DNA of 64,000 nucleotides from Diaminobutyricimonas sp. LJ205 (GTDB lineage Bacteria > Actinomycetota > Actinomycetes > Actinomycetales > Microbacteriaceae), in assembly GCF_009755725.1 (NCBI RefSeq), contig NZ_CP046619.1, forward strand, positions 620,001-684,000, given 5' to 3'. A program made the position numbers and the translations under genes. Below, piece by piece: positions 25,063 to 40,382 of this stretch. Under the pieces are notes generated by a model. It saw only the letters and a program-made list of their open reading frames with translations. It did no database searches and was not told the DNA's origin. Numbering within the stretch: position 1 is the stretch's first letter; every line of letters starts with the position of its first letter.

Positions 25063-25433
25063 GGGGATGATCGGTTTCGACATTGCCTGAATGACTGCGA
25101 GAAGCGGGTCGAGGATGCAGGGTTATCTCGTTAACGATCTCTGCAAAATATAAGTGCCAATTCAAAGCGCACTGACTTCTCCCTCGCTGCATAAGCGAGC
25201 CTGAAGTCCGTCAGCCCGTGGGTCCGTTCCCGCCCCGGTGCCTGGCGTCATTAAGGGAGCTTGCTGCGACATTACGCCTTGGGGTGCCGCGGGACTTTAA
25301 CTAGGGCTGGGCTCGTCGACCTAGAGGCCTGCAGCAAAGGTCGGAGCCGAGTAGAACGTCTGAGCAGGCTACGCCCGTAGAAGGCGCAGGATTACAGCAG
25401 TGGACCGGGGTTCGATTCCCCGCATCTCCACCA
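25063..25433 (+). ncRNA. ssrA: transfer-messenger RNA
   Basis: One-piece tmRNA of 371 nt. The 5' end GGGGATGATCGGTTTCGACA and the 3' end GGTTCGATTCCCCGCATCTCCACCA form the tRNA-like domain: acceptor arms GGGGATG/CATCTCC pair with one G-U and CCA is encoded. The tag frame starts GCC at 25156 and ends TAA 25192-25194, giving ANSKRTDFSLAA, with the LAA degradation end. Rescues stalled ribosomes together with SmpB. Confidence 0.97.
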
Positions 25434-26283: not shown

Positions 26284-26799
26284 ATGGACCCGTACGATGC
26301 CTCAACCCGTTCCACGCCCAGCGGACGCCCGTCCGTGGCCGATACGAAGGCGGGCACGGCAATCGCAAGGGGCATTGCCGTCTTCCTCGCCGGAGTCGCG
26401 CTCGCCCTCTGGATCGTGTTCGGGCGGTTCCTGTTCGGCGTCGGCGGCGAGCTCACCCCGATCTACCTGCTGATCGGCATCGTGATCGTCTTTCTGTACG
26501 CGTTCATCGGCCAGGCGATGGCCCGCGCCGCGACGCGCGGCTACCTGACGAGACGGGCAACGCTGGTCACGCTGATCGCGGCGTGGGGTTGCGGCATCCT
26601 GCTCGGGCTGACGATCCCGGATGTCACCCCCGACGGTCTGCAGACGGTGATCTCCGGCACGGCCGAACCGTGGCGCGGCATCGCGATCGGTCTCGCCAAC
26701 CCTGCGGGCATCATCACCGTCGCGCTCAGCATCGCGGCGCTGGTGCTGGCGAATCAGGATGCCCGCGGCCCCCGACCGTCGGATGACGAAACTCCCTAG
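26284..26799 (+). CDS. four-helix membrane protein of unknown function
   Basis: 171 aa from ATG 26284 (ATG 26281 adds one Met). A hydrophilic N-terminal 25 residues is followed by four hydrophobic helices, near IAVFLAGVALALWIVFG, IYLLIGIVIVFLYAFIG, LVTLIAAWGCGILLGLTI and AGIITVALSIAALVLA, with a charged tail. TAGGCT at 26272-26277 lies 6 nt before 26284, so a leaderless start is likely. No recognised family. Confidence 0.6.
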   Translation: MDPYDASTRSTPSGRPSVADTKAGTAIARGIAVFLAGVALALWIVFGRFLFGVGGELTPIYLLIGIVIVFLYAFIGQAMARAATRGYLTRRATLVTLIAAWGCGILLGLTIPDVTPDGLQTVISGTAEPWRGIAIGLANPAGIITVALSIAALVLANQDARGPRPSDDETP

Positions 26800-26828
26800 A
26801 GGCGACCGAGGCCGATGCTTCTGGCCCA

Positions 26829-26881
26829 TTGACATTGCGCGCGCCGATTCCATATTGTCGGTATATTCAAAATGCTTAATA
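26829..26881 (+). promoter_or_regulatory. promoter and operator of the first DoxX gene
   Basis: TTGACA 26829-26834, 18-nt spacer, TATTGT 26853-26858, then after 5 nt TATTCAAAATGCTTAATA (26864-26881), an imperfect inverted repeat sitting over the expected +1. The second DoxX gene has the same layout at the same spacing. Confidence 0.6.
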
Positions 26882-26915
26882 GCATCGTGCTCTACTCACC
26901 AGCAACGGAGTTGAG

Positions 26916-27443
26916 ATGGACATTGGCATCCTGCTACTGCGCCTGATTCTGGCCTTCATCCTTTTTGCGCACTCCACCCAGAAGTTGTTCGGCTGGTTCC
27001 AGGGGCCCGGTCTGCCGGGCGCGACCGCATTGTTCGAGAAGCTGGGCCAGCGGCCCGCCCGCCAGCTGGTCCTGTTCGCCTCCCTGTGTGAGGCGACTGC
27101 CGCTGCGTCGCTGCTGGTGGGTTTTCTAACGCCGCTGGGCGTTGCGATCGGTGTCGGGGCGATGCTGGTGGCGGGGATGACGCTCATCATGTTCGCTAAG
27201 ACGTTCTGGAACGTGGCGGGCGGGGGCGAGTATCCCATCGTGCTGGCGGCGGCGATCGCAATCGTCGGTTTCACCGGGCCGGGCGCCTACTCGGCCGACG
27301 TGTTCCTGAACCTGCCATGGACCAATCTTGCTGCCGAGTGGCAGTTCCTCATCGGTGCCGGCGCGGTGCTGCTCGCCGTGCTGGCCGCCACCGGGCCACT
27401 GATGAATGCCCGGTCGCACCTCAGCACCAAGACCTCCACCTAA
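26916..27443 (+). CDS. DoxX-family membrane protein, copy 1
   Basis: 175 aa with four hydrophobic helices; MDIGILLLRLILAFILFAHSTQKLFGWFQGPGLPGATALFEKLG is the typical DoxX start (RLxxGxxFxxHGxxKLFG variant). DoxX proteins are small integral membrane proteins that can act as quinone-linked oxidoreductase subunits; in Bacillus subtilis a DoxX protein (CatD) is paired with the catechol dioxygenase CatE against quinone stress. The next gene is an almost identical copy: 490 bp (26923-27412) match 27702-28191 without a difference, while N- and C-terminal codons and flanks differ. An extradiol dioxygenase gene lies 5 kb downstream. Confidence 0.88.
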   Translation: MDIGILLLRLILAFILFAHSTQKLFGWFQGPGLPGATALFEKLGQRPARQLVLFASLCEATAAASLLVGFLTPLGVAIGVGAMLVAGMTLIMFAKTFWNVAGGGEYPIVLAAAIAIVGFTGPGAYSADVFLNLPWTNLAAEWQFLIGAGAVLLAVLAATGPLMNARSHLSTKTST

Positions 27444-27529
27444 CTATCGTCCAGTCGCTCAGTCGATCCTCGTTCACCTGGTAGAGGGCGCCGCCCGGCA
27501 TCGGTTGCTCTCCCGGCGGTATTCGCGTG

Positions 27530-27572
27530 GGATCGCTTGACCGGCGTCGCCGGATCGCTTGACCGCCGTCGC
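27530..27572. repeat. 21-bp tandem direct repeat between the DoxX genes
   Basis: GGATCGCTTGACCG(G/C)CGTCGC occurs at 27530-27550 and 27552-27572, period 22, one mismatch. It lies in the 251-bp gap between the two DoxX genes, which otherwise holds only the second promoter. Confidence 0.8.
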
Positions 27573-27607
27573 AGGCAGAAAGATCCCTTCGTCCCTTTAC
27601 GTACCTA

Positions 27608-27660
27608 TTGACATGGGGAGCGGCAATTCGCTACACTCAATATATTCATTACGCTCAGTA
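27608..27660 (+). promoter_or_regulatory. promoter and operator of the second DoxX gene
   Basis: TTGACA 27608-27613, 18-nt spacer, TACACT 27632-27637, 5 nt, TATTCATTACGCTCAGTA (27643-27660). Architecture is identical to the copy-1 promoter although the spacer sequence is different, so the promoter elements look selected rather than simply copied. Confidence 0.6.
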
Positions 27661-27694
27661 GTTTTGGGCAACCCGAGACAACAATGGAGTTGCA

Positions 27695-28222
27695 ATGGAT
27701 GTTGGCATCCTGCTACTGCGCCTGATTCTGGCCTTCATCCTTTTTGCGCACTCCACCCAGAAGTTGTTCGGCTGGTTCCAGGGGCCCGGTCTGCCGGGCG
27801 CGACCGCATTGTTCGAGAAGCTGGGCCAGCGGCCCGCCCGCCAGCTGGTCCTGTTCGCCTCCCTGTGTGAGGCGACTGCCGCTGCGTCGCTGCTGGTGGG
27901 TTTTCTAACGCCGCTGGGCGTTGCGATCGGTGTCGGGGCGATGCTGGTGGCGGGGATGACGCTCATCATGTTCGCTAAGACGTTCTGGAACGTGGCGGGC
28001 GGGGGCGAGTATCCCATCGTGCTGGCGGCGGCGATCGCAATCGTCGGTTTCACCGGGCCGGGCGCCTACTCGGCCGACGTGTTCCTGAACCTGCCATGGA
28101 CCAATCTTGCTGCCGAGTGGCAGTTCCTCATCGGTGCCGGCGCGGTGCTGCTCGCCGTGCTGGCCGCCACCGGGCCACTGATGAATGCCCGCTCGCACCT
28201 CGGCACCAAGGCGTCCTCGTAG
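27695..28222 (+). CDS. DoxX-family membrane protein, copy 2
   Basis: 175 aa; differs from copy 1 only at residue 3 (V for I) and in the last seven residues (LGTKASS versus LSTKTST). All synonymous positions over 490 bp are also identical. Four hydrophobic helices. It ends 45 bp before the Liv transporter genes with no promoter visible between, so it may be co-transcribed with the transporter. Role as for copy 1: probable membrane redox or quinone-related function within the catabolic island. Confidence 0.88.
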   Translation: MDVGILLLRLILAFILFAHSTQKLFGWFQGPGLPGATALFEKLGQRPARQLVLFASLCEATAAASLLVGFLTPLGVAIGVGAMLVAGMTLIMFAKTFWNVAGGGEYPIVLAAAIAIVGFTGPGAYSADVFLNLPWTNLAAEWQFLIGAGAVLLAVLAATGPLMNARSHLGTKASS

Positions 28223-28267
28223 CCATCCATTAATTCGGCCATTAGAGACGGGACCGGAAAATAGCGG

Positions 28268-29134
28268 ATGGACCTCAATTTGATCGCCCAGCTCACCTTG
28301 AATGGGCTGAGCTTTGGCGCCTTGCTCTTCCTCGTTGCCAGCGGGTTCACGCTGGTGTTCGGGCTCATGCGAATTTCGAATCTCGCGCACGGCGGGTTCT
28401 ACCTGATCGGGGCATACATCGCCGTGATCACGGTGGCGACGACAGGCAATTTCCTGCTCGGCGCCCTGGCCGGCGCGATTGCGAGCGCTGGGGTTGGACT
28501 GATAGTCGAGCGGGGCCTTCTTCGTCGACTGCGAGGCGAAGAGATGCCAGAGGTTCTCGTGACCATCGGTGTCGCGTTCGTGATCGCCGACCTTGTCCTG
28601 GCGACCTTCGGTGGGGACCCGAAATCCATTGGCCGCGCATCCCTCTGGCCCTCCGGAACTCTCGTTCTTGAAGGGTTCAGCTACCCGATCTACCGACTGT
28701 TCATCATTGCAGTGACGGTTGTCATCGGAGCGGCGATGCTCTACTTCCAGCGGCGGACTCGAGTCGGCGCGATCGTGCGGGCCGGGGTCGACAATCGCGA
28801 GATGGCGTCAGCCATCGGAATCAACATCGATCGCGTCTTCGCTGGCGTCTTCATCCTCGGGGCCGCACTCGCCGGCTTCGCGGGCGCGATCGGATCCGGA
28901 CTGCTGAGCCACGTGCCTTCAACGGGCACGGAGATATTGCTGTTCGCGATGGTGGTGGTCATCGTGGGTGGTCTTGGCAGCGTCACGGGCGCGGCAGTCG
29001 GCGCGGCACTCATCGGGCTCATCGATGCGTTCGCGAAGGTCTGGCTGCCCGAGTTCTCGTACTTCACGGTCTTCGCCCCGATGGCCCTGGTCCTTGTGTT
29101 TCGACCGAATGGTCTATTCGGAGGGAAGGCATGA
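28268..29134 (+). CDS. livH: branched-chain amino acid-type ABC transporter permease (LivH-like)
   Basis: 288 aa, eight or so hydrophobic helices. GFTLVFGLMRISNLAHGGFYLIGAYIAV is the LivH N-terminal signature, and the EAA-like loop appears as GAIVRAGVDNREMASAIGINIDRVFAGVF. Inner-membrane channel subunit. This transporter family also carries aromatic acids, amides and urea, so the name does not fix the substrate. ATGA overlap with livM. Confidence 0.9.
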   Translation: MDLNLIAQLTLNGLSFGALLFLVASGFTLVFGLMRISNLAHGGFYLIGAYIAVITVATTGNFLLGALAGAIASAGVGLIVERGLLRRLRGEEMPEVLVTIGVAFVIADLVLATFGGDPKSIGRASLWPSGTLVLEGFSYPIYRLFIIAVTVVIGAAMLYFQRRTRVGAIVRAGVDNREMASAIGINIDRVFAGVFILGAALAGFAGAIGSGLLSHVPSTGTEILLFAMVVVIVGGLGSVTGAAVGAALIGLIDAFAKVWLPEFSYFTVFAPMALVLVFRPNGLFGGKA

Positions 29135-30099
29135 CACGCACCCGTCTGGTGAAAGTCACGGCGATCCTGGTGGCGCTGACTGCGGCCATCGCCTTGCCAT
29201 ACGTGGTGGGCAATTACTACGTCACGCTCGCATCTCTCGTGCTGGCGACGGCCTTACTTGCGTCCAGTGTGAACATGCTCGCGGGCGATGGCGGGCTCTT
29301 CTCGCTGGGCCACGCAGGCATCGCAGCGGCAGCCGCGTACGGCATGGCCTGGGCGTCGCGGCAGGGGTTCGACTTCGCGCTCCAACTGCTGATCGCCGCT
29401 GCATTGACCGTGTTCGCGAGCGTCATCTATGCGCTGATCTCGATGCGAACAGGCGGCGTCTTTTTCCTCATGGTCACGCTGGCCGCCGGAATGGTGTGTT
29501 ACGGCATGGCCTATCGGTGGTCATCGGTGACCGGAGGGGCCAACGGCTTATCTGGGATTCGGCGACCCGAGCAATTCTCTGAGTACTGGCAGTACTACTT
29601 CCTGGTTCTCGTCGTCTATGGGCTCGTTGTCGCCGCGCTGATGGTGTACTCGCGTTCACCGTTCGCGCTGACGATTCGCGGCATCCGTGAGAGCCCGAGC
29701 CGAATGCGAAGCCTCGGGTACAACGTCGTGGCGTACAAGTTCACGGCGATCTTGCTGTCAGGCCTGGTGGCCGGTCTCGCAGGAGTTCTGCTCGTGTGGC
29801 AGGCCGAGTTCATCAGCCCGTCCTTCTCGGGATTCGAGGCGTCGGCGCTGGCGTTGGTCATGGTCATCCTCGGCGGCACTGGGACCGCTTTTGGGCCCCT
29901 GGTCGGTGCAGTCATCGTCGTGCTGACCCAGCAGGTCCTTAGTACATACGTGGATCGTTGGCCAACGGTGCTTGGTCTGCTGTTCATCGTGACGCTCATG
30001 GTGGCACGTCAGGGGATCCTAGGCACGCTCAGCGCACGCAGACGTCGTCGACCGCAGCGGTCGATGCCGAAGTTAGCCCCGCAAACAGGAGGGAAATAA
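29131..30099 (+). CDS. livM: branched-chain amino acid-type ABC transporter permease (LivM-like)
   Basis: 322 aa, about nine helices. SSVNMLAGDGGLFSLGHAGIAAAAAYGMA and IRESPSRMRSLGYNVVAYKFTAILLSGLVAGLAGVLLVWQAEFISP are the LivM hallmarks. Starts inside the livH stop and ends 4 nt before the binding-protein gene. Confidence 0.9.
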   Translation: MTRTRLVKVTAILVALTAAIALPYVVGNYYVTLASLVLATALLASSVNMLAGDGGLFSLGHAGIAAAAAYGMAWASRQGFDFALQLLIAAALTVFASVIYALISMRTGGVFFLMVTLAAGMVCYGMAYRWSSVTGGANGLSGIRRPEQFSEYWQYYFLVLVVYGLVVAALMVYSRSPFALTIRGIRESPSRMRSLGYNVVAYKFTAILLSGLVAGLAGVLLVWQAEFISPSFSGFEASALALVMVILGGTGTAFGPLVGAVIVVLTQQVLSTYVDRWPTVLGLLFIVTLMVARQGILGTLSARRRRRPQRSMPKLAPQTGGK

Positions 30100-30103
30100 G
30101 AGT

Positions 30104-31378
30104 ATGCAATCATCCATTCGTCGACGGAGACGCCTGGTTTCTGTTGCCACAGCAGCCGCAGTCGCTCTCGTCATTGCTGGCTGTGCGCCCGCTGGTTCTT
30201 CATCGAACAACGAGCAGGACCCGGCGACCGGGCAGACGTTCAAGGTGGGTGTGCTCGCCTCGCTCACCGGCTTCGCCTCCGCGCTTGGGGTGGACCTTGA
30301 GCGCGGCTGGAATCTCTACTGGGAAGAGAACGGCAACACGGCAGGCAACTTCACGGTCGAGACGGTCGTGGAAGACGACGCGAGCAGTGTCGACACCGCG
30401 ATCAGCAAGACGACCCGACTGGTCAATGACGAGCAAGTGGATGTCGTCGTCGGACCGGTGCTGGCGAGCCAGGCCCTCGCCGTCGCCGACTTTCTCGAGC
30501 AGGAGGGCGTTGCGAACATCTCCCAGTCCTCGGCGGACGACTTGACACAGCGCGAGTCCAGCCCGCTCCTGCTGCGAGTCGGGGCGTACGGCGGAAGTCA
30601 GGCCACGTTCCCCGGTGGGCAGTGGGCGTACGAAGAAGGACACCGCACGGCCGCAACCCTGTGCGCCGACTACGGGTTCGGTTGGGAAGGCTGCGGTGGA
30701 TTTGTCACAGCGTTCACCGAGGCTGGTGGTGCCGTGACCGACCAGCTCTGGTATCCAGCCGATGCCAGCGACCTGAGCTCGTACGTGACGCAGTTGATGA
30801 ACATGGATGTCGATCTCATCTTCGTCGCGAACTCCGGAGGAACGGACAGCTCCAACTTCCTTCGCTCCGCGGCTGACTTCGGACTCCTGGATCGCACGCC
30901 GGTGTTGTCGAACTGCTGCACGACCGATCAGGCGATCTTGGAGGATGTCGGGGATATCGCCCTCGGGATCAACTCGGTGAGCTTCTTCGCGGAGAGCGCT
31001 CCTCAAGCCGAAGAATTTGTCGCGCTGTATGAGGAACGCTACGGCGTCATCCCGTCGAGCTACGCACTTGGTGCCTACGCCACGGCCGAGTTGATCGCGA
31101 CGGCCCTGGCCAGCGCCGACTCGAAGCTTGAGGGCGAGGAGCTGATCGCCGCCATCACAGCCGGCGATGTCACGGGAACACCGTGGGGCGACATCAGCTT
31201 CGATGAGTACAACAACATCACCGGACCGATCATGATCCGGACGGTCGAGGAGCGCGCTGACGGCAAGCTGTGGAACGCGGTCGTGAAGCAGTATGACGAT
31301 GTAAGCCAGTTCTGGCACTTCGATCCGAAGGAGTTCTTGAAGAACCCTCCGTATTCCCCCACCTATACCGGCCGATGA
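30104..31378 (+). CDS. livK: ABC transporter substrate-binding lipoprotein (LivK-like)
   Basis: 424 aa. Lipoprotein signal: MQSSIRRRRRLVSVATAAAVALVIAGC with a lipobox IAGC, acylated Cys at about residue 27. The periplasmic-binding fold type I begins FKVGVLASLTGFASALGVDLERGWNLYWEENG. EDDASSVDTAISKTTRLVNDEQVDVVVGPVLASQA matches the LivJ/AmiC-type hinge region. The pocket composition cannot be translated to a ligand by eye. Its neighbours (dioxygenase, flavin oxidase, amidohydrolase) argue for a nitrogen-containing aromatic rather than an amino acid. A strong hairpin begins 17 nt after its stop. Confidence 0.88.
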   Translation: MQSSIRRRRRLVSVATAAAVALVIAGCAPAGSSSNNEQDPATGQTFKVGVLASLTGFASALGVDLERGWNLYWEENGNTAGNFTVETVVEDDASSVDTAISKTTRLVNDEQVDVVVGPVLASQALAVADFLEQEGVANISQSSADDLTQRESSPLLLRVGAYGGSQATFPGGQWAYEEGHRTAATLCADYGFGWEGCGGFVTAFTEAGGAVTDQLWYPADASDLSSYVTQLMNMDVDLIFVANSGGTDSSNFLRSAADFGLLDRTPVLSNCCTTDQAILEDVGDIALGINSVSFFAESAPQAEEFVALYEERYGVIPSSYALGAYATAELIATALASADSKLEGEELIAAITAGDVTGTPWGDISFDEYNNITGPIMIRTVEERADGKLWNAVVKQYDDVSQFWHFDPKEFLKNPPYSPTYTGR

Positions 31379-32175
31379 TCGCTGCCTCAACGGGGACACC
31401 TCCTCTCCCCGCGGGGGGAGGAGGTGTCGGCAGCATCCTTGAACTCGAAGGTGTGACGAAACGCTTCGGAGGTATCGCCGCGGTCAACGGGGTCTCCTTC
31501 GCCCTGCCGCCCGGTGGACGAATGGCGGTAATCGGGCCGAATGGTGCAGGGAAGTCCACCCTGTTCCGTTTGATCGCGGGTGAGTACGCGCCCACCTCCG
31601 GCCGCGTTCTCCTCTTCGGCGAAGACGCGACACACCTCAGCGAGCGGACGCGCGCAAATCGCGGCGTGTCCCGTACGTTCCAGGTGTCGAATCTCTTCGC
31701 GGAGCTGAGCGTCGAAGACAACGTTCGTGTTGCAGTCCAGGCCGCCTCCGGTGAGAGTCAACGATTCTGGCGTCCGGTGCGACGCGGCGTCGGCGAGGTT
31801 GGAAAGCGGGTTGACGCCGCCTTGAGTCAGGTGGGTCTCCGTGCCCGCTCGCAGCGTTTGGTGAAGGAACTCTCACACGGTGAGCATCGGCAGCTGGAAA
31901 TCGCGATGGCTCTCGTGAGGCAGCCCAAACTGCTGCTTTTGGACGAACCGGCCGCGGGTCTTTCCGCGAACGAACGAGGGATGCTACGGCAGCTGCTAGC
32001 GGACATCGCTGACGATGTCAGCTTCGTGCTGATCGAGCACGACATGTCACTCGCGCTCGAGTTGGTCGACCGCGTTCTTTGCCTCGACAACGGATCGCCG
32101 ATCGCCTACGCCGATCCTGACGGTATCCGCGCGGACCCAACGGTTCAAGCGGTGTATCTCGGCAGAAGGAGGTAG
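31375..32175 (+). CDS. livG: ABC transporter ATP-binding protein (LivG-like)
   Basis: 266 aa from ATG 31375, which overlaps the livK stop. Walker A GPNGAGKSTLFRLI, RTFQVSNLFAELSVEDNV (Q-loop), signature LSHGEHRQLEIAMAL, Walker B LLLLDEPAAGLS, FVLIEHDMSLALEL (H-loop). The first 22 residues (Thr/Pro/Gly-rich) are encoded by a perfect 15-bp hairpin and lie before the family start ILELEGVTKRFGG, so they may be an accidental extension; no better ATG or GTG start is present. Confidence 0.9.
   Translation: MIAASTGTPPLPAGGGGVGSILELEGVTKRFGGIAAVNGVSFALPPGGRMAVIGPNGAGKSTLFRLIAGEYAPTSGRVLLFGEDATHLSERTRANRGVSRTFQVSNLFAELSVEDNVRVAVQAASGESQRFWRPVRRGVGEVGKRVDAALSQVGLRARSQRLVKELSHGEHRQLEIAMALVRQPKLLLLDEPAAGLSANERGMLRQLLADIADDVSFVLIEHDMSLALELVDRVLCLDNGSPIAYADPDGIRADPTVQAVYLGRRR
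31395..31428 (+). other. 15-bp hairpin at the livK-livG junction
   Basis: GACACCTCCTCTCCC (31395-31409) pairs with GGGGGAGGAGGTGTC (31414-31428) around a CGCG loop, with one G-U pair. The right arm contains GGAGGAGGT, a perfect Shine-Dalgarno, and the left arm is its anti-Shine-Dalgarno. It could stabilise the livK mRNA 3' end or lower livG expression relative to the binding protein. Confidence 0.6.
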
Positions 32176-32177
32176 TG

Positions 32178-32882
32178 ATGCTCAAGATCAGCGACCTCCA
32201 CGTCGGCTACGGGAAAGCGCAAGTCTTGACCGGGATCGAACTTGAGATTGCCCGCGGTGAATCCGTGGCGCTCATGGGACGAAACGGAATGGGCAAGACG
32301 ACCCTGATTCGCGCAATCAGCGGCCTCAGGCCGCCCGAGGTCAGCAGCGGTCGAATTGAGCTCGACGGTAAGAATTTGCTCGCGCTGAGTCCGCATGCGA
32401 TCGCTCGGGCAGGAGTCGGCCTGGTTCCTCAGGGCAGGCACGTGTTCGGCAGCCTGACCGTGCTGGAGAACCTGTCGATCGTGCCCGGTTCGCGCGAGCG
32501 CGATGAGTGGACCATCGAGCGGGTGTTCGATTTCTTCCCGCGTCTTCGAGAGCGTTCGAAGATGTACGCGGCAACACTGTCCGGGGGAGAACAGCAGATG
32601 CTCGCGATCGGACGGGCGCTCTTGACCGGACCCCAGCTCCTGCTCATGGACGAGCCGTCCGAAGGATTGGCACCGGCAGTGCTCGACACGATCGAGGATC
32701 GTCTGCAGGAACTTCGACGGTCGGGACTCTCCGTGCTTGTCGCAGAGCAGAACGTCGACTTCGCTCTCAGCCTGAGCGACCGAGTCGTCATTCTTGGCGA
32801 GGACGGGAAGGTTGCCTGGGACGGGACGCCCTCAGTGCTCGCCTCGGACGCGTCGCCGATCCACGAGCACCTCGGACTTTGA
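32178..32882 (+). CDS. livF: ABC transporter ATP-binding protein (LivF-like)
   Basis: 234 aa from ATG 32178 (AAGGAGG 4-5 nt upstream; GTG 32175 adds one residue). Second ATPase of the transporter. Walker A GRNGMGKTTLIRAISG, LVPQGRHVFGSLTVLENL, signature LSGGEQQMLAIGRAL, Walker B LLLMDEPSEGLAP, and LSVLVAEQNVDFALSL, all typical of LivF. Last gene of the transport operon; 105 bp follow before the dioxygenase gene. Confidence 0.92.
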   Translation: MLKISDLHVGYGKAQVLTGIELEIARGESVALMGRNGMGKTTLIRAISGLRPPEVSSGRIELDGKNLLALSPHAIARAGVGLVPQGRHVFGSLTVLENLSIVPGSRERDEWTIERVFDFFPRLRERSKMYAATLSGGEQQMLAIGRALLTGPQLLLMDEPSEGLAPAVLDTIEDRLQELRRSGLSVLVAEQNVDFALSLSDRVVILGEDGKVAWDGTPSVLASDASPIHEHLGL

Positions 32883-32895
32883 TCACGCCCTCGCA

Positions 32896-32944
32896 TTAAA
32901 GCTATTCAATCTATTAGAATGATGGGTATCGCACGGAGTGCGAT
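32896..32944 (+). promoter_or_regulatory. regulatory region before the dioxygenase gene
   Basis: Contains TATTCAATCTATTAGAAT (32903-32920), which resembles the DoxX operators in its TATTCA half and ends in a TAGAAT -10-like box, and a perfect ATCGCAC-GGA-GTGCGAT inverted repeat at 32928-32944 in the expected leader. The dioxygenase unit may therefore have its own promoter. Confidence 0.4.
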
Positions 32945-32987
32945 GCGCCATTGAAGCGACATTGACGTCGGAAGAGATGAGGCAATA

Positions 32988-33929
32988 ATGAGGCCACTTG
33001 TTCAGCGGTTGGGGTACGTCGCGGTTGACGCAACTGATCCCGTTCGTCTTGCTGAAGACACCGCAAATATCGTGGGAGCGCGAGTCGTCGGACGAGACGG
33101 TGGAAGAATCCTGATGTCGTCCAACCGGCGGCACGCTGAGCTCGTGATTCACGAGGGAGCGAGTGACTCCTACCGGAGTTGCGGGCTTGAAGCGGTGAGT
33201 GAGTCGGCCGTCGATGAGGTCGCTGAGCGATGCAAGCGGGCCGGCATCGAGGTGCTCTCTCGCACGCCATCCCTGGCTGCGATCGACAAGTCGGTCACGT
33301 TCCAGACCTCGGAAGGCCTCGTTTTCGAAGTGCACACACCGATGCCGGAAGATCGTGCCTCGAAATATCACGGCCCGGGGGTTCGGCCGAAGACCCTCGA
33401 CCACATCAACTTCACAGCCGTGGACCCCGAGCAGTGGTCCAAGGAGATGGCGGACTCGTGCGGCTTCCTGCTGAGCGAGCGGACGACCGGTTTCGAGATC
33501 TCGTGGATGCGCGCCGCTGACCGGCGGCACCACACCGTGGCCGCCGTCAAGAGTCACGCGGGCGGGGTCCATCACCTCAGCTGGGAGTTCAATAGCTTCC
33601 AAGACATGAAGACGATCAGCGACAGTCTCATCCCGGAGGAGCGCCGCCTCATTTGGGGTCCGGGTCGTCATGGGGCTGGAGACAACCTCTTCCTCTACTT
33701 CCGCGACAGCGCAGACTTCCTGGTCGAGTGCATCGCCGAGATGGAACTCATGCAGGACGACGCGCCTGTTCGGATTTCGGACCCGGGAGAGGGCCTGTCC
33801 AACTGGAAGGTCGTGAACCAGTGGGGTGCGCTGCCCCCGATCGAATGGGTCGAGTCGTTCACGCCGATCAGCGCGGCGGCAGGAAACCCTGGCGATCCCA
33901 CGCATGCCGCTGCAGCGGTCACGCTCTAG
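32988..33929 (+). CDS. type I extradiol dioxygenase-like VOC protein
   Basis: 313 aa, two VOC domains. Domain 2 keeps all three metal ligands of extradiol dioxygenases: His in LDHINF (about residue 138), His in GVHHLSWEF, and Glu in the segment GRHGAGDNLFLYFRDSADFLVE. That last segment follows the extradiol signature GxH...Y...D...E except that the usual Pro after Asp is Ser. The conserved His and Tyr of the active site are therefore present. Expected reaction: O2-dependent meta-cleavage of a catechol-like or hydroxylated heteroaromatic ring. Starts the second half of the island, with Rid, flavin oxidase and amidohydrolase genes following on the same strand. Confidence 0.78.
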   Translation: MRPLVQRLGYVAVDATDPVRLAEDTANIVGARVVGRDGGRILMSSNRRHAELVIHEGASDSYRSCGLEAVSESAVDEVAERCKRAGIEVLSRTPSLAAIDKSVTFQTSEGLVFEVHTPMPEDRASKYHGPGVRPKTLDHINFTAVDPEQWSKEMADSCGFLLSERTTGFEISWMRAADRRHHTVAAVKSHAGGVHHLSWEFNSFQDMKTISDSLIPEERRLIWGPGRHGAGDNLFLYFRDSADFLVECIAEMELMQDDAPVRISDPGEGLSNWKVVNQWGALPPIEWVESFTPISAAAGNPGDPTHAAAAVTL

Positions 33930-33976
33930 AGAAACACACACTGACACACCGAAGCGTTACGAAAGGGATCCTGATT

Positions 33977-34381
33977 ATGCCTCGAACGGTCATGAATCCA
34001 GAGAGCGTGCATTCCGCTCCGGGCTACAGCCACATTGCGGTCGCGGAGGGGGAGAAGCTCGTGTTCTTTGCCGGGCAGGTGTCTCTCGACGACGACCTGA
34101 ATATCGTCGGGGAGGATGATCTGAGGCTTCAGGTGATCACGGCGATGAGCAATCTTGCGAAGGTGATGGAGGCCGCGGGTGCGAGCTGGGATGACATCGT
34201 TCGCCGGACCGTGTACACGACGCAACCATTTGAACTGGCGGCAATCGGTGAATCGATTGCTCAGGTGACGGGTGATGCGGCCGATCCGCCGCAGACGATC
34301 GTGGGAGTGACCGGACTCGCGCTCCCTGGGCTGCTCGTGGAGATCGAATGCACCGCTTCGCTGCGTTCGTCGACACTATAG
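33977..34381 (+). CDS. Rid-family (YjgF/YER057c/UK114) protein lacking the deaminase arginine
   Basis: 134 aa from ATG 33977, Shine-Dalgarno AAAGGGA. YSHIAVAEGEKLVFFAGQVSLDDDLNIVGEDDLRLQVITAMSNLAKVMEAAGASWDDIVRRTVYT and the end VEIECTASL are Rid-family. The position matching Arg105 of Escherichia coli RidA falls in TGLALPGLLVEIE, which has no Arg. RidA proper needs that residue to hydrolyse enamines/imines, so this belongs with the Rid groups of other or unknown activity that often sit in catabolic operons. 12 bp from the flavin oxidase gene. Confidence 0.82.
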   Translation: MPRTVMNPESVHSAPGYSHIAVAEGEKLVFFAGQVSLDDDLNIVGEDDLRLQVITAMSNLAKVMEAAGASWDDIVRRTVYTTQPFELAAIGESIAQVTGDAADPPQTIVGVTGLALPGLLVEIECTASLRSSTL

Positions 34382-34393
34382 GACGGCGCGACG

Positions 34394-35788
34394 ATGGCAA
34401 CCGACCCGCGACGCGAAGGAGCGCACGCATTGACGCCACATGACTTCGAGAGCCGGCTCGTACGCGATCCGGAGCTGCTCGCACAGATGAGCGGCTACAA
34501 CCAGGCATGGGATGTCGCGCCTTCGGTGGCGCTGCGCCCTCACGGCGACGGCGATGTCGCTGCCGCGATCGACTACGCGAGTGAGCGCGGACTCGGAGTC
34601 GCAGTTCAGTCGACCGGTCACGGGCGGGTGGATGCAACGACGGATGCGTTCTTGCTCGATACCAGCGGCCTGCGCTCACTCGAGGTCGACCCCGATCAGC
34701 GCACGGCGCGTGTCGATGCGGGTGTCCGGTGGACGGAGGTCATCGAGTCGGCAGCCCGTTTCGGGCTCGCGCCCCCGTCAGGTTCGTACCCCGGCGTCGG
34801 CGTCATGGGTTACAGCCTGGGCGGAGGTCTTGGACCACTCGGCCGCAAGTATGGATACGCCGCGGATCACGTGCGCGAAGTGACCGTGGTGGCTGCCGAC
34901 GGGCAGACCTACGTCGCAAGCCCGACTCGCAATCCCGAGCTCTTCTGGGGCATCCGCGGCGGAAAGGGGAACTTCGGCATCGTCACCTCCATGGTGATGG
35001 ATCTGCTCCCCGTCTCGGAGCTGTTCGGTGGCGGCATCTACTTTGCCGGAGATGCGACCGCAGACATTCTTCACAACTACTTCCCCTGGGCGCAGTCCCT
35101 CCCTGAGGAGGCGACCAGCTCAATCGCTCTGATTCGGATGCCGGATGTGCCGGAGGTGCCCGAGGCGATCCGCGGCAAGTTCGTGGTACATCTAAGGATG
35201 GCTCACCTGGGTAGCGCGGACGAAGGGGCTGCGTTGCTCGCCCCTATGCGCCGGCTGGGGCCGACGTTGCTGGAGAACATGCGCACGATGCCCTACACGG
35301 ATGTCGCCAGCATCCACAACGACCCGCCCGAGCCGACTCCGTTCTGGGATCGTAGCGCCTTGCTTCGGGATGTCACCGATGAAGCCATCGACCGGTTGGT
35401 CGAGGTCGCTGGGCCGAGCGCGGATCTTCCGTTGGCGATGGTCGAGGTGCGCCACCTCGGCGGAGCGCTTGCGCGACAGCCTGAGACGCCGAACGCAGTA
35501 GGCGGGCGCGATGCCGAGTTCAACATGCTGATGCTCGGAGTGTCGACAGAGAGCGGTTTCTCCACCGTCAAGGACGCTGGTGCTGCGGTTGTCGGCGCCG
35601 TCCAGGATTCCTGGACCGGGAATTCAATCCTGAATTTCCTTGGGCCCGACCAGACACCCGACCAAATTGCACGAGCATTCAAAGCGGATGACTACGTCCG
35701 TCTACAGGAGCTGAAGAAGCACTGGGACCCGGACAACCTGTTCCGGTTCGGGCACGTTATCCCGACCGCCGACATTCGGATCGGGTGA
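34394..35788 (+). CDS. BBE-family FAD-linked oxidase
   Basis: 464 aa. PCMH-type FAD domain: LGVAVQSTGHGRVDATTDAFLLDTSGL, where the His in GHG is the usual covalent FAD site, and YPGVGVMGYSLGGGLGPLGRKYGYAADHV. The berberine-bridge C-terminal end appears as KKHWDPDNLFRFGHVI. The second attachment cysteine of bicovalent members is absent, so FAD is probably tied through His alone, as in 6-hydroxy-D-nicotine oxidase. That enzyme oxidises a C-N bond in a heterocycle; by analogy this one may make an imine that a downstream hydrolase opens. Substrate unknown. No signal peptide. Confidence 0.82.
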   Translation: MATDPRREGAHALTPHDFESRLVRDPELLAQMSGYNQAWDVAPSVALRPHGDGDVAAAIDYASERGLGVAVQSTGHGRVDATTDAFLLDTSGLRSLEVDPDQRTARVDAGVRWTEVIESAARFGLAPPSGSYPGVGVMGYSLGGGLGPLGRKYGYAADHVREVTVVAADGQTYVASPTRNPELFWGIRGGKGNFGIVTSMVMDLLPVSELFGGGIYFAGDATADILHNYFPWAQSLPEEATSSIALIRMPDVPEVPEAIRGKFVVHLRMAHLGSADEGAALLAPMRRLGPTLLENMRTMPYTDVASIHNDPPEPTPFWDRSALLRDVTDEAIDRLVEVAGPSADLPLAMVEVRHLGGALARQPETPNAVGGRDAEFNMLMLGVSTESGFSTVKDAGAAVVGAVQDSWTGNSILNFLGPDQTPDQIARAFKADDYVRLQELKKHWDPDNLFRFGHVIPTADIRIG

Positions 35789-35845
35789 CCTGCAAGCCCC
35801 TTCGTTCCTTCGGGAGCACCGCAACACATGAGCATAGGAGAAATG

Positions 35846-37189
35846 ATGTCTGGAAGTTCCACACCCCCGAGAGGGTCATACCTCATCCGCGGTGGCGCAG
35901 TGATTTCCGTAGACCCGGAGATCGGGAACCTGCCCCAGGGGGACGTCCTGGTCAAGGACGGCGTGATCGTGGATGTCGGTAGCGACATCCAGGCTAATGA
36001 TGCCGAGGTGGTGGACGCGAGCGGGATGATCGTGATGCCGGGCCTGATCGAAACGCACCACCACATGTGGAGTTCGCTCGGCCGCAACTTCGTCGCTCAG
36101 GACCATGAGTACTTTCCCGCGAAATGGGCCACTTCCGCGCACTACGAGCCGGAGGACTTCTACCGGAGCGTGCTCCTCGGCCTTGTGGATGCGGCGAATG
36201 CCGGGATCACCACGATGCACAACTGGTCGCACAACACCCGGACGCCCGAGCATGCCGACGCAGAACTCAGGGCGCACCGCGACGGTCTTATCCGAGCGCG
36301 GTACTCGTACGGTCACCGCGATCTCCTCCCCGAGGACGAGGCACTCGACTTCACCGATATCGATCGAGTCGCGAACGAGTGGTTCCACACGGACTCGGAG
36401 CTCGCCAAGGTGGTCCACCTCGGGGTGAACCTGCGGGGACCCGACCTCGGTGATTCGGACGTGTTCTACAGAGAAGCGGAAGAGGCGCGGGCGCGGAAGC
36501 TTCCGGTGTCCGTTCACACGATGCAAGGTGCGGAGACGAAAGTTTCAGCGCGCGAGCTCGAGGAAAAGGGGCTGTTGGGGCCGGACTTCCTCATCTGCCA
36601 CTTCCTGGCGGCCACGGAAGAGGACCGCCAGGCCATGGTGAGGACGGGCACTCCGTTGAGCTTCTCCGTGCACTCGGAGCTCCGGCTCGGCGATGCGGGC
36701 GACCCGAGAGCTGCCCTGCTGAAGATGGTCGCCGCCGGCGTAACGGTGTCGCTGTCGATCGACGCGACGTCGTTGGCTCCCGTCAACTTGTTCGAGGCGA
36801 TGCACATCGCCTGGAACATGGGGATCCCGTGGCAGGGCACAGATACGGAGTCCTTCGATCGACTGAACTTCGCCGACGCCATTCGGTTCGCAACCATCAA
36901 CGGTGCGCAGGCGCTGGGCCTCGGGGATGTCACCGGTTCGCTCACGCCCGGAAAGCGCGCCGACCTAATCCTGATCCGGAAGCATGACCTCAACGTCGCG
37001 CCGGTGGGGGACCTGGAATCGACCGTGGTGCGTTCGGTCACCCCTGCGAATGTCGACACCGTCCTCAGCGACGGCCGCATCATCAAGCGGAAGGGCGAGC
37101 TCGTGGCCTTCGACGTGGAGCGAATTGTCCGAGAGGCAGAGGCCTCGGCCGCGGCCGTGCTCGATCGTGCGGGCGCCCGCGTCGGATAG
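35846..37189 (+). CDS. ATZ/TRZ-type amidohydrolase
   Basis: 447 aa from ATG 35846 (AGGAG 5 nt upstream; ATG 35828 and 35843 also in frame). Metal-dependent amidohydrolase barrel: IVMPGLIETHHHMW has the HxH, LPVSVHTMQGAE the third His, LICHFLAATEED the fourth and SLSIDATSLAP the Asp. The catalytic Glu normally three residues after the third His is Gln here (HTMQ). The C-terminal SLTPGKRADLILI is family-typical. Relatives deaminate or dechlorinate purines, pyrimidines and s-triazines, consistent with a nitrogen heterocycle substrate for the island. Convergent with the GntR gene. Confidence 0.85.
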   Translation: MSGSSTPPRGSYLIRGGAVISVDPEIGNLPQGDVLVKDGVIVDVGSDIQANDAEVVDASGMIVMPGLIETHHHMWSSLGRNFVAQDHEYFPAKWATSAHYEPEDFYRSVLLGLVDAANAGITTMHNWSHNTRTPEHADAELRAHRDGLIRARYSYGHRDLLPEDEALDFTDIDRVANEWFHTDSELAKVVHLGVNLRGPDLGDSDVFYREAEEARARKLPVSVHTMQGAETKVSARELEEKGLLGPDFLICHFLAATEEDRQAMVRTGTPLSFSVHSELRLGDAGDPRAALLKMVAAGVTVSLSIDATSLAPVNLFEAMHIAWNMGIPWQGTDTESFDRLNFADAIRFATINGAQALGLGDVTGSLTPGKRADLILIRKHDLNVAPVGDLESTVVRSVTPANVDTVLSDGRIIKRKGELVAFDVERIVREAEASAAAVLDRAGARVG

Positions 37190-37214
37190 TAGCCGCGCAG
37201 TCGCGAGGTCCGCG

Positions 37215-37251
37215 CGCGGAGTGCTGATGGGTCCACCATCAGTACTCCGCG
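37215..37251. terminator. bidirectional stem-loop terminator
   Basis: CGCGGAGTGCTGATGG (37215-37230), loop GTCCA, CCATCAGTACTCCGCG (37236-37251): 16 bp with one G-U. It lies between the convergent amidohydrolase and GntR genes; no long U-run on either side. Confidence 0.7.
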
Positions 37252-37323
37252 TTCTGCGTCAGCCCGGATCCAGCCTCGAGGTCCTGCTGAGTGCCTCTAC
37301 CGGATGGGCAGAGTTTGCATCAA

Positions 37324-38013
37324 TCAGCGAGCGAGGTTCGCCTCGAGAGAGTGTTCGATGGAGGCTCGACGACAGGCTTCCTCGTCGCCGGACTCGATCG
37401 CGTCGACGATTGCCTCGTGCACGCGTACACGCTCCTGCTTCTGCGGCATACGCTTCGAACCGGGCACGACATTCACAGTGTTCGAAGAGATGATCTCAAG
37501 CAAGCCGAGGGCTACGTTCTTCAGGATCTCGTTCCTGCCGATCCCGATGACCAGCTCATGGAAGGCCCAGTTGCTGCGAACGAAGAGCAGATCATCATCG
37601 ATCGCGTCGCGCATGCGCTGTACCTGCGCGCGGAGTGCTCGAATATCCTTGGCGGTTCGGTACCGACTGGCTTCGACAACCGTCAGCGGATCGACCACCG
37701 CGCGGAGCGCCACGGCATCCATGACAGTCTCCGGCTTTGCACGGACGGCGATGAGGGCGTCGCTGATCCGGACAAGGGGATCCGGTGAAGCGACGAAGAC
37801 ACCACCACGGGGTCCGGTGCGCAATGAGATCACATGTCGGGACTGGAGGAGCCGAATGGCTTCATTCATCGTCCCGGCAGCGACCCCGGCCTGAAGGCGC
37901 AGCTCGTCTTTAGTGCCAAGGCGATCGCCGGGTTGCATCTTCTCGATGGTCGACAACAGACGATCCGCAACATCCTGGGCACGCGAAGGACGGACATGCA
38001 AATCGAATGACAT
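37324..38013 (-). CDS. GntR/FadR-family transcriptional regulator
   Basis: 229 aa from ATG 38013; ATG 38040 would add nine residues and neither has a clear Shine-Dalgarno. Winged helix: RAQDVADRLLSTIEKMQPGDRLGTKDELRLQAGVAAGTMNEAIRLLQSRHVISLRTGPRGGVFV. C-terminal FCD-like helical domain with DDLLFVRSNWAFHELVIGIGRNEI and ERVRVHEAIVDAIESGDEEAC, where Asp/His residues usually bind a metal that helps hold an organic acid. Divergent from the semialdehyde dehydrogenase, whose -10 box lies in a perfect palindrome; probable repressor of that gene and perhaps of the island. Confidence 0.87.
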   Translation of the reverse strand: MSFDLHVRPSRAQDVADRLLSTIEKMQPGDRLGTKDELRLQAGVAAGTMNEAIRLLQSRHVISLRTGPRGGVFVASPDPLVRISDALIAVRAKPETVMDAVALRAVVDPLTVVEASRYRTAKDIRALRAQVQRMRDAIDDDLLFVRSNWAFHELVIGIGRNEILKNVALGLLEIISSNTVNVVPGSKRMPQKQERVRVHEAIVDAIESGDEEACRRASIEHSLEANLAR

Positions 38014-38128
38014 GTGTTCATAGTACTGGATTTGGGCCATCGTCAACGGGCGGATCGGCTTCGGCGGGAAGCAGGAGGTAGCCACAGCGGTGCATGTTGT
38101 GCAGAAATGCGGCGACTCGGAACAATGC

Positions 38129-38145
38129 CCTATAATGATTATAGG
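38129..38145 (+). promoter_or_regulatory. palindromic operator over the dehydrogenase -10 box
   Basis: CCTATAATGATTATAGG, a perfect palindrome with arms CCTATAA and TTATAGG around TGA. It contains a consensus TATAAT -10 at 38131-38136, so a bound GntR dimer would directly block RNA polymerase. It lies 39 bp before the dehydrogenase start and 116 bp before the GntR start. Confidence 0.7.
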
Positions 38146-38183
38146 TAATCGTGCCACGGTGGCGCGACGGGAGGATGCGAGCA

Positions 38184-39683
38184 ATGACGCGTGAACTGAC
38201 TCACTTCATCGGCGGCGCCAGGGTTGCTGGCACTTCTGGACGCTTCAGTGATGTGTTCAACCCGAGCACAGGAGAAGTGCAGGCGCGCGTCCCCTTGGCC
38301 AGCGTCGAAGAAGTCTCGAACGCTATCGCGAACGCGGCCGCCGCTCAGGAGGAGTGGGGCGCGACGAATCCGCAGCGCCGTGCCCGCGTCCTGCAGAAGT
38401 TCCTCGAGCTGATCGCCAAGGACACGCCGTCGCTGGCTCGCATGCTCTCGAGCGAGCATGGCAAGACCATCGACGACTCGAAGGGTGACATCCTGCGCGG
38501 GGTTGAGGTCATCGAGTTCGCGCTCGGCGCTCCTCACCTGCTGAAGGGGGAGTACACGACTGGTGCCGGGGCCGGCATCGATGTGTACTCGATGCGTCAG
38601 CCGCTTGGTGTGGTGGCCGGTATCACGCCGTTCAACTTCCCCGCGATGATTCCACTGTGGAAGGCAGGCCCGGCGATCGCTGCCGGTAACTCCTTCATCT
38701 TGAAGCCTTCCGAGCGTGACCCCTCGGTGCCGCTGCGTATCGCAGAGCTGTTCATCGAAGCGGGCCTGCCTGCTGGAGTGTTCAACGTCGTCAACGGTGA
38801 CAAGGAAGCCGTCGATGCGATCCTCACCGACGATCGGATCAAGGCTGTCGGATTTGTGGGTTCGACGCCGATTGCGCAGTACATCTACTCCACGGCCGCG
38901 GCGCACGGCAAGCGCGCACAATGCTTCGGTGGCGCAAAGAACCACCTCATCGTGATGCCGGACGCTGACCTTGACCAGGTCGCCGATGCGCTGATCGGCG
39001 CAGGGTACGGTTCGGCCGGTGAACGGTGCATGGCGATCTCGGTCGCCGTTCCGGTCGGGGCGGAGACGGCAGACGCCCTCGCTGCGACGCTGGCCGAGCG
39101 TGTCAAGCACCTCAAGGTCGGCCCGGCTTTGGAAGAAGGCTACGACTATGGCCCGCTGGTGACAGCTCAGGCCAAGACGCGCGCGGAGGATTACATCCAA
39201 GGCGCCATCGATGAGGGAGCAACGCTTCTGGCCGACGGCCGCGGCATTACCGTGCCAGGGCATGAGAGCGGCTTCTACCTGGGGCCGACCCTCTTCGACC
39301 ACGTCACGCCGGACATGACGATCTACAAGGAAGAGGTCTTCGGGCCCGTCCTGATCATCACCCGGGCGGACAGCTATGAGGAAGCGTTGCGTCTGCCCAG
39401 CGAGCACGAATACGGCAACGGTGTTTCGATCTTCACCCGCGATGGCGACGCGGCGCGTGACTTCGCCGCCCGAGTGAACACCGGCATGGTCGGTGTGAAC
39501 GTGCCGATCCCGGTGCCGATCGCCTACCACTCATTCGGCGGCTGGAAGCGCTCCGGCTTCGGGGACCTCAACCAGTATGGAACCGACTCCTTCCGCTTCT
39601 ACACGAAGACGAAGACGGTGACCAGCCGCTGGCCCTCCGGAATCAAAGAGGGTGCCAGCTTCGTAATGCCGATGATGCATTGA
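38184..39683 (+). CDS. mmsA: CoA-acylating methylmalonate-semialdehyde dehydrogenase
   Basis: 499 aa from ATG 38184 (GGGAGG 9 nt upstream; GTG 38151 and ATG 38175 rejected). Aldehyde dehydrogenase of the MmsA/IolA class: VAGITPFNFPAMIPLWKAGPAIAAGNSFILKPSERDPSVPL, VGFVGSTPIAQYIY, and the nucleophile in GSAGERCMAISVAV. It oxidises malonic or methylmalonic semialdehyde to acetyl-CoA or propionyl-CoA with NAD and CoA. It could complete the valine operon at 0.4-4.3 kb, or finish the island's own pathway; its placement beside the island's GntR favours the second, but both are possible. Confidence 0.9.
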   Translation: MTRELTHFIGGARVAGTSGRFSDVFNPSTGEVQARVPLASVEEVSNAIANAAAAQEEWGATNPQRRARVLQKFLELIAKDTPSLARMLSSEHGKTIDDSKGDILRGVEVIEFALGAPHLLKGEYTTGAGAGIDVYSMRQPLGVVAGITPFNFPAMIPLWKAGPAIAAGNSFILKPSERDPSVPLRIAELFIEAGLPAGVFNVVNGDKEAVDAILTDDRIKAVGFVGSTPIAQYIYSTAAAHGKRAQCFGGAKNHLIVMPDADLDQVADALIGAGYGSAGERCMAISVAVPVGAETADALAATLAERVKHLKVGPALEEGYDYGPLVTAQAKTRAEDYIQGAIDEGATLLADGRGITVPGHESGFYLGPTLFDHVTPDMTIYKEEVFGPVLIITRADSYEEALRLPSEHEYGNGVSIFTRDGDAARDFAARVNTGMVGVNVPIPVPIAYHSFGGWKRSGFGDLNQYGTDSFRFYTKTKTVTSRWPSGIKEGASFVMPMMH

Positions 39684-39728
39684 CCGGTATTTGATAGCCA
39701 CAGAAGAGAACGTCACACCTGAGTCGCG

Positions 39729-40382
39729 TCAACGCATCGTCAGGCCGCGGTCGCGTGCGACAGCGACCGCGGCTGCCCGATCCCGCAGGTGCAGCTTCGC
39801 GAGGATCGTGGCGACGTTGTTCCGCACCGTCTTCTCGGAGAGCAGGAGCGCAGCGGCAATCTCGTGATTGCTGCGCCCGGCGGCGACCTGCCCGAGAACT
39901 TCGGCCTCCCGCGCCGTGAGTTCGGGAAACACCGCGGCCGGAGCCGGCTGCGATCCGCGGGTTGCGTAGTCGGCCAGGCGCCGGCCGATCTCACCGCCGT
40001 ACACGGTTCCGCCCGATGCGACGGCGAGCACCGCCCGGGTGATCTCCTCGCGCTCGGCGCCCTTGAGCAGGTAGCCGCTCGCCCCGGCGCTGACCGCGGC
40101 GAGCACGGGTCCATCGTCGGCGTGCATGGTCAGCACGATGACCCCGATCTCGGGATGGTTCCTAGCGAGTTCGGCGACGGCGCCTGCCCCGGTCACTCCC
40201 GGCATCTCGAGATCGGTCAACACCACGGCCGGACGAAGCTCTCGGGTGAGCCGCAGCAGTTCGGGGCCGTCGGCGGCCGCGCCGACCACCTCCAGCTCGG
40301 GAACCGCGACGAGAGCCGCCTCCAGTCCGAACCTGAACATTGGATGATCGTCGGCAATCACGACCCGCACCGGGGCGGTCAC
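39729..40382 (-). CDS. NarL/LuxR-family response regulator
   Basis: 217 aa, GTG 40382, overlapping the kinase stop by one base. Receiver: VRVVIADDHPMFRFGLEAAL, VVLTDLEMPGVTGA (phospho-Asp), VIVLTMHADDG, GYLLKGAEREEI. HTH: LTAREAEVLGQVAAGRSNHEIAAALLLSEKTVRNNVATILAKL. Output of the adjacent sensor. Confidence 0.92.
   Translation of the reverse strand: MTAPVRVVIADDHPMFRFGLEAALVAVPELEVVGAAADGPELLRLTRELRPAVVLTDLEMPGVTGAGAVAELARNHPEIGVIVLTMHADDGPVLAAVSAGASGYLLKGAEREEITRAVLAVASGGTVYGGEIGRRLADYATRGSQPAPAAVFPELTAREAEVLGQVAAGRSNHEIAAALLLSEKTVRNNVATILAKLHLRDRAAAVAVARDRGLTMR

Follow-up and report, generated by a model that had tools for sequence, protein, structure and literature searches.

Concerted evolution of duplicated coding sequences is on record in prokaryotes (PMC6053082), and in Salmonella the conversion between the duplicate tuf genes is processive and bounded by the gene ends (PMC5485169). 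The tandem doxX pair described here lies in a window (the whole 64 kb stretch of DNA that was analysed) covering bases 620001-684000 of the single-contig 3.22 Mb chromosome of Diaminobutyricimonas sp. LJ205. It resembles tufA/tufB of Salmonella and other bacteria in having two intact duplicates whose coding sequences were probably kept alike by recombination (PMC5485169, PMC6053082), and also in that the apparent conversion extends to the limits of the gene.

The doxX genes and their identical tract

Copy 1 (26916-27443) and copy 2 (27695-28222) were both encoded on the forward strand as intact reading frames of 175 aa for DoxX-family membrane proteins. Both products exceeded the curated family cut-off of the Pfam model PF07681 (4e-12 and 47 bits versus a cut-off of 23.6), while none of the NCBIfam models named them. 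Positions 26923-27412 of copy 1 and 27702-28191 of copy 2 on the same strand were identical at 490/490 bases, the longest exact run at the offset of 779 and the sole long direct repeat within the window. The base-for-base identity claimed in an earlier note on this DNA was therefore exact and included the synonymous positions, as none of the approximately 140 synonymous sites in the tract (114 fourfold-degenerate codons) differed.

Alignment of the two genes required no indels, and the coding sequences differed at 9/528 bases, comprising two at 26921-26922 and seven at 27413-27443. The earlier note had described both the first and the last codons as widely different. This was too strong at the 5' end, where the first codons were apart at only two bases (D-I versus D-V), and also at the 3' end, where 7/31 bases of the last ten codons plus stop differed and the remaining 24 (77%) matched. 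Divergence was 0 in the 490 bp tract versus 24% in the remaining coding sequence and 37.5% upstream. When nine differences were scattered randomly over the gene, a run of 490 was never obtained in 200,000 trials; at 5% divergence, the probability of 0/490 differences was approximately 1e-11; and the 95% upper bound on tract divergence was 0.6%. A two-rate likelihood-ratio statistic within the coding sequence was 49.5, with the tract limits having been chosen from the data. The genes hence displayed a tract of near-identity that began and ended abruptly within homologous sequence of greater divergence and that included synonymous sites, the pattern by which gene conversion is recognized.

Upstream regions and spacer

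The 88 bp preceding the start codons, at 26828-26915 for copy 1 and 27607-27694 for copy 2 (both forward strand), matched without gaps and in exact register at 55/88 positions (62.5%), compared to a mean of 22.1 and a maximum of 39 in 100,000 shuffles. The next-best match to this segment in the window was also 39, such that nothing comparable occurred elsewhere in it. Beyond these limits the similarity fell to chance level, with 30% identity upstream of 26828 and 27% over the first 45 bp past the stop codons. The unique 163 bp spacer between the copies (27444-27606) had no detected homology to the sequence 3' of copy 2. The flanks had previously been said to differ widely and the promoters and gene ends do differ, but the 88 bp upstream are homologous in register.

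A promoter scan identified TTGACA and a plausible -10 hexamer in both upstream regions, with TTGACA at 26829, CATATT at 26851-26856, and a ribosome-binding region for copy 1, and TTGACA at 27608 and TACACT ending at 27637 for copy 2. Pattern searches located a block common to both copies just 3' of the two -10 regions, which read TATATTCAAAATGCTTAATAG in the copy 1 promoter (26862-26882, forward strand) and TATATTCATTACGCTCAGTAG in that of copy 2 (27641-27661, forward strand), the shared form being TATATTCAnnAnGCTnAnTAG. The latter may represent a putative operator, for example for the FCD-domain regulator encoded at 37324-38184.

Genomic context and relatives

The pair was located at the left edge of an accessory catabolic cluster of approximately 12.95 kb (26790-39740), which was absent at the same point in the congener G002. 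In that genome, the homologues of 26421-26789 and 39741-39851 were positioned 18 bp apart, from which it follows that some 12.95 kb is missing there. At the G002 junction, just a short remnant of the neighboring LuxR/NarL-type response regulator gene was recognizable (L059 7928-8039). Following the two doxX genes, the cluster contained two branched-chain-type ABC permeases, a substrate-binding protein, two ABC ATPases, an extradiol-type dioxygenase, a Rid protein, an FAD oxidase, an amidohydrolase, the FCD-domain (GntR-type) regulator, and an aldehyde dehydrogenase. Its G+C content was 61-65% versus approximately 70% just to its right. A tmRNA gene was identified by ARAGORN at 25063-25433, approximately 1.4 kb from the left end of the cluster; genes of this type often serve as sites of integration. 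The chromosome also carried a second extradiol-type dioxygenase gene (C1:94313-95203; L038 10314-11300) with a product 75% identical to that of 32988-33929, in a different cluster that had homologues of the ABC transporter, Rid, and amidohydrolase genes and no DoxX.

No orthologue above approximately 56% identity was revealed by a pattern scan covering genomes of 84,980 species, or among plasmids or up to 400 genomes each at the family, class, phylum, and nearest-relative level. No orthologous doxX pair was found in another genome of those collections, the fetched loci holding one DoxX each, and plasmid DNA contained no match to the repeat region. In the collections searched, the closest DoxX proteins outside the genome were approximately 55% identical, including one in a matching cluster of Georgenia sp. 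SYP-B2076 (L003) that contained homologues of the permeases, binding protein, ATPases, dioxygenase, DoxX, regulator, and aldehyde dehydrogenase with 44-73% identity. The Georgenia cluster contained a single doxX after the dioxygenase gene, whereas here the gene is double and placed ahead of the permease genes. The ends of the Georgenia protein were too diverged for it to polarize the conversion. Its gene adjoined an open reading frame resembling fumarylacetoacetate hydrolase (named by this resemblance), and DoxX relatives with 50-56% identity from Rhodococcus and Streptomyces plasmids were found in clusters with fumarylacetoacetate-hydrolase genes. These contexts suggest a putative role of the DoxX subfamily in aromatic-compound breakdown.

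Proposed history of the pair

The preferred reading, with a probability of roughly 0.83, is that promoter and gene were duplicated together in tandem at an old date and that the central 490 bp were homogenized by recombination in recent times. A unit of approximately 616 bp (26828-27443) would have been duplicated long ago and its copies would then have diverged, leaving noncoding flanks that are today approximately 62% alike. The 62.5% in-register likeness upstream, with chance identity beyond it, indicates that the duplicated unit was most likely promoter plus gene and that the duplication was old, and the lack of any indel in the 88 bp and the gene alike fits a unit that was ancestrally duplicated as a whole, rather than a bare coding stretch that was inserted. 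The earlier argument that flanks would have come along in a recent simple duplication was in this respect incomplete, as 88 bp of homologous, in-register flank does appear to have been copied, just at an older date.

Much later, homologous recombination between the copies would have replaced the central 490 bp in one copy by the sequence of the other, via gene conversion or two unequal crossovers of equivalent effect. The 37% divergence of the leaders and 23% of the 3' coding ends, compared to none in the 490 bp, points to such a recent exchange, recent in relative terms given the 0.6% upper bound on tract divergence. The exchange probably stopped where the copies were poorly homologous, immediately within the start of the gene on one side and 31 bp short of its end on the other, and each copy would thereby have retained its own promoter and extreme ends. 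Tract edges at poor homology are as predicted for recombination between duplicates, and since recombination ends where homology ends, no special rule of confinement to the coding sequence is needed. Gene conversion, as proposed earlier, or equivalent recombination is the best explanation, with its confinement to the coding region a probable by-product of where homology had survived. Gene conversion is the simplest mechanism; an identical pattern would result from two unequal crossovers or from incoming DNA that replaced the sequence. A doubtful addition to this history is that two DoxX copies on differently tuned promoters benefit the cell and that selection retains repeated conversion, giving a uniform protein with specializing promoters.

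Under a quite unlikely alternative, the coding sequence alone was recently duplicated in tandem into or beside a second promoter, and the promoters are alike via binding of a common regulator. The upstream blocks most alike were indeed the -35 region and the block immediately following the -10, as expected of a shared operator, but the in-register likeness spanned the 88 bp and persisted outside these blocks (22/43 masked positions matching, shuffle p approximately 6e-5). Neither block recurred elsewhere in the window, and pattern searches detected no further convincing copy of the shared promoter block in the window, the Georgenia locus, or L038. The differing coding ends were also homologous (24/31). 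The promoter likeness is probably ancestral rather than convergent.

It is very improbable that one copy is an assembly artefact, either spurious or homogenized by consensus calling or polishing. The 490 bp exact repeat is longer than short reads, but the genome was assembled as one contig (99.6% complete, 0.05% contamination) and an assembler cannot invent distinct homologous promoters, distinct ends, and a spacer of 163 bp that is unique. By reasoning, a repeat graph of the form A-R-B-R-C can be traversed in a single way, and assembly would have kept apart any copies that truly differed by several percent. Strong purifying selection on the nucleotide sequence, offered earlier as the alternative to conversion, is compatible with the two intact reading frames but most unlikely, as it would have had to act on all of the approximately 140 synonymous sites and stop abruptly 31 bp before the gene end, with 37% divergence arising in the promoters linked to them, in a family that is itself not frozen according to its relatives in other genomes (at most approximately 56% identical).

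Comparison with the tuf genes

The process proposed for the doxX pair is well known in bacteria from the tuf genes, and the pair is a new, rather ordinary place for it that leaves the general view unchanged. It offers a clean, compact case of recent homogenization in a bacterial tandem pair with limits readable on both sides, and could provide a small natural test of the point at which diverged duplicates cease to recombine. The tufA/tufB genes function in translation, are highly expressed, and undergo homogenization that is recurrent and long-lasting, whereas the doxX genes belong to an accessory cluster, have starts 779 bp apart, and had no counterpart pair in the collections searched.
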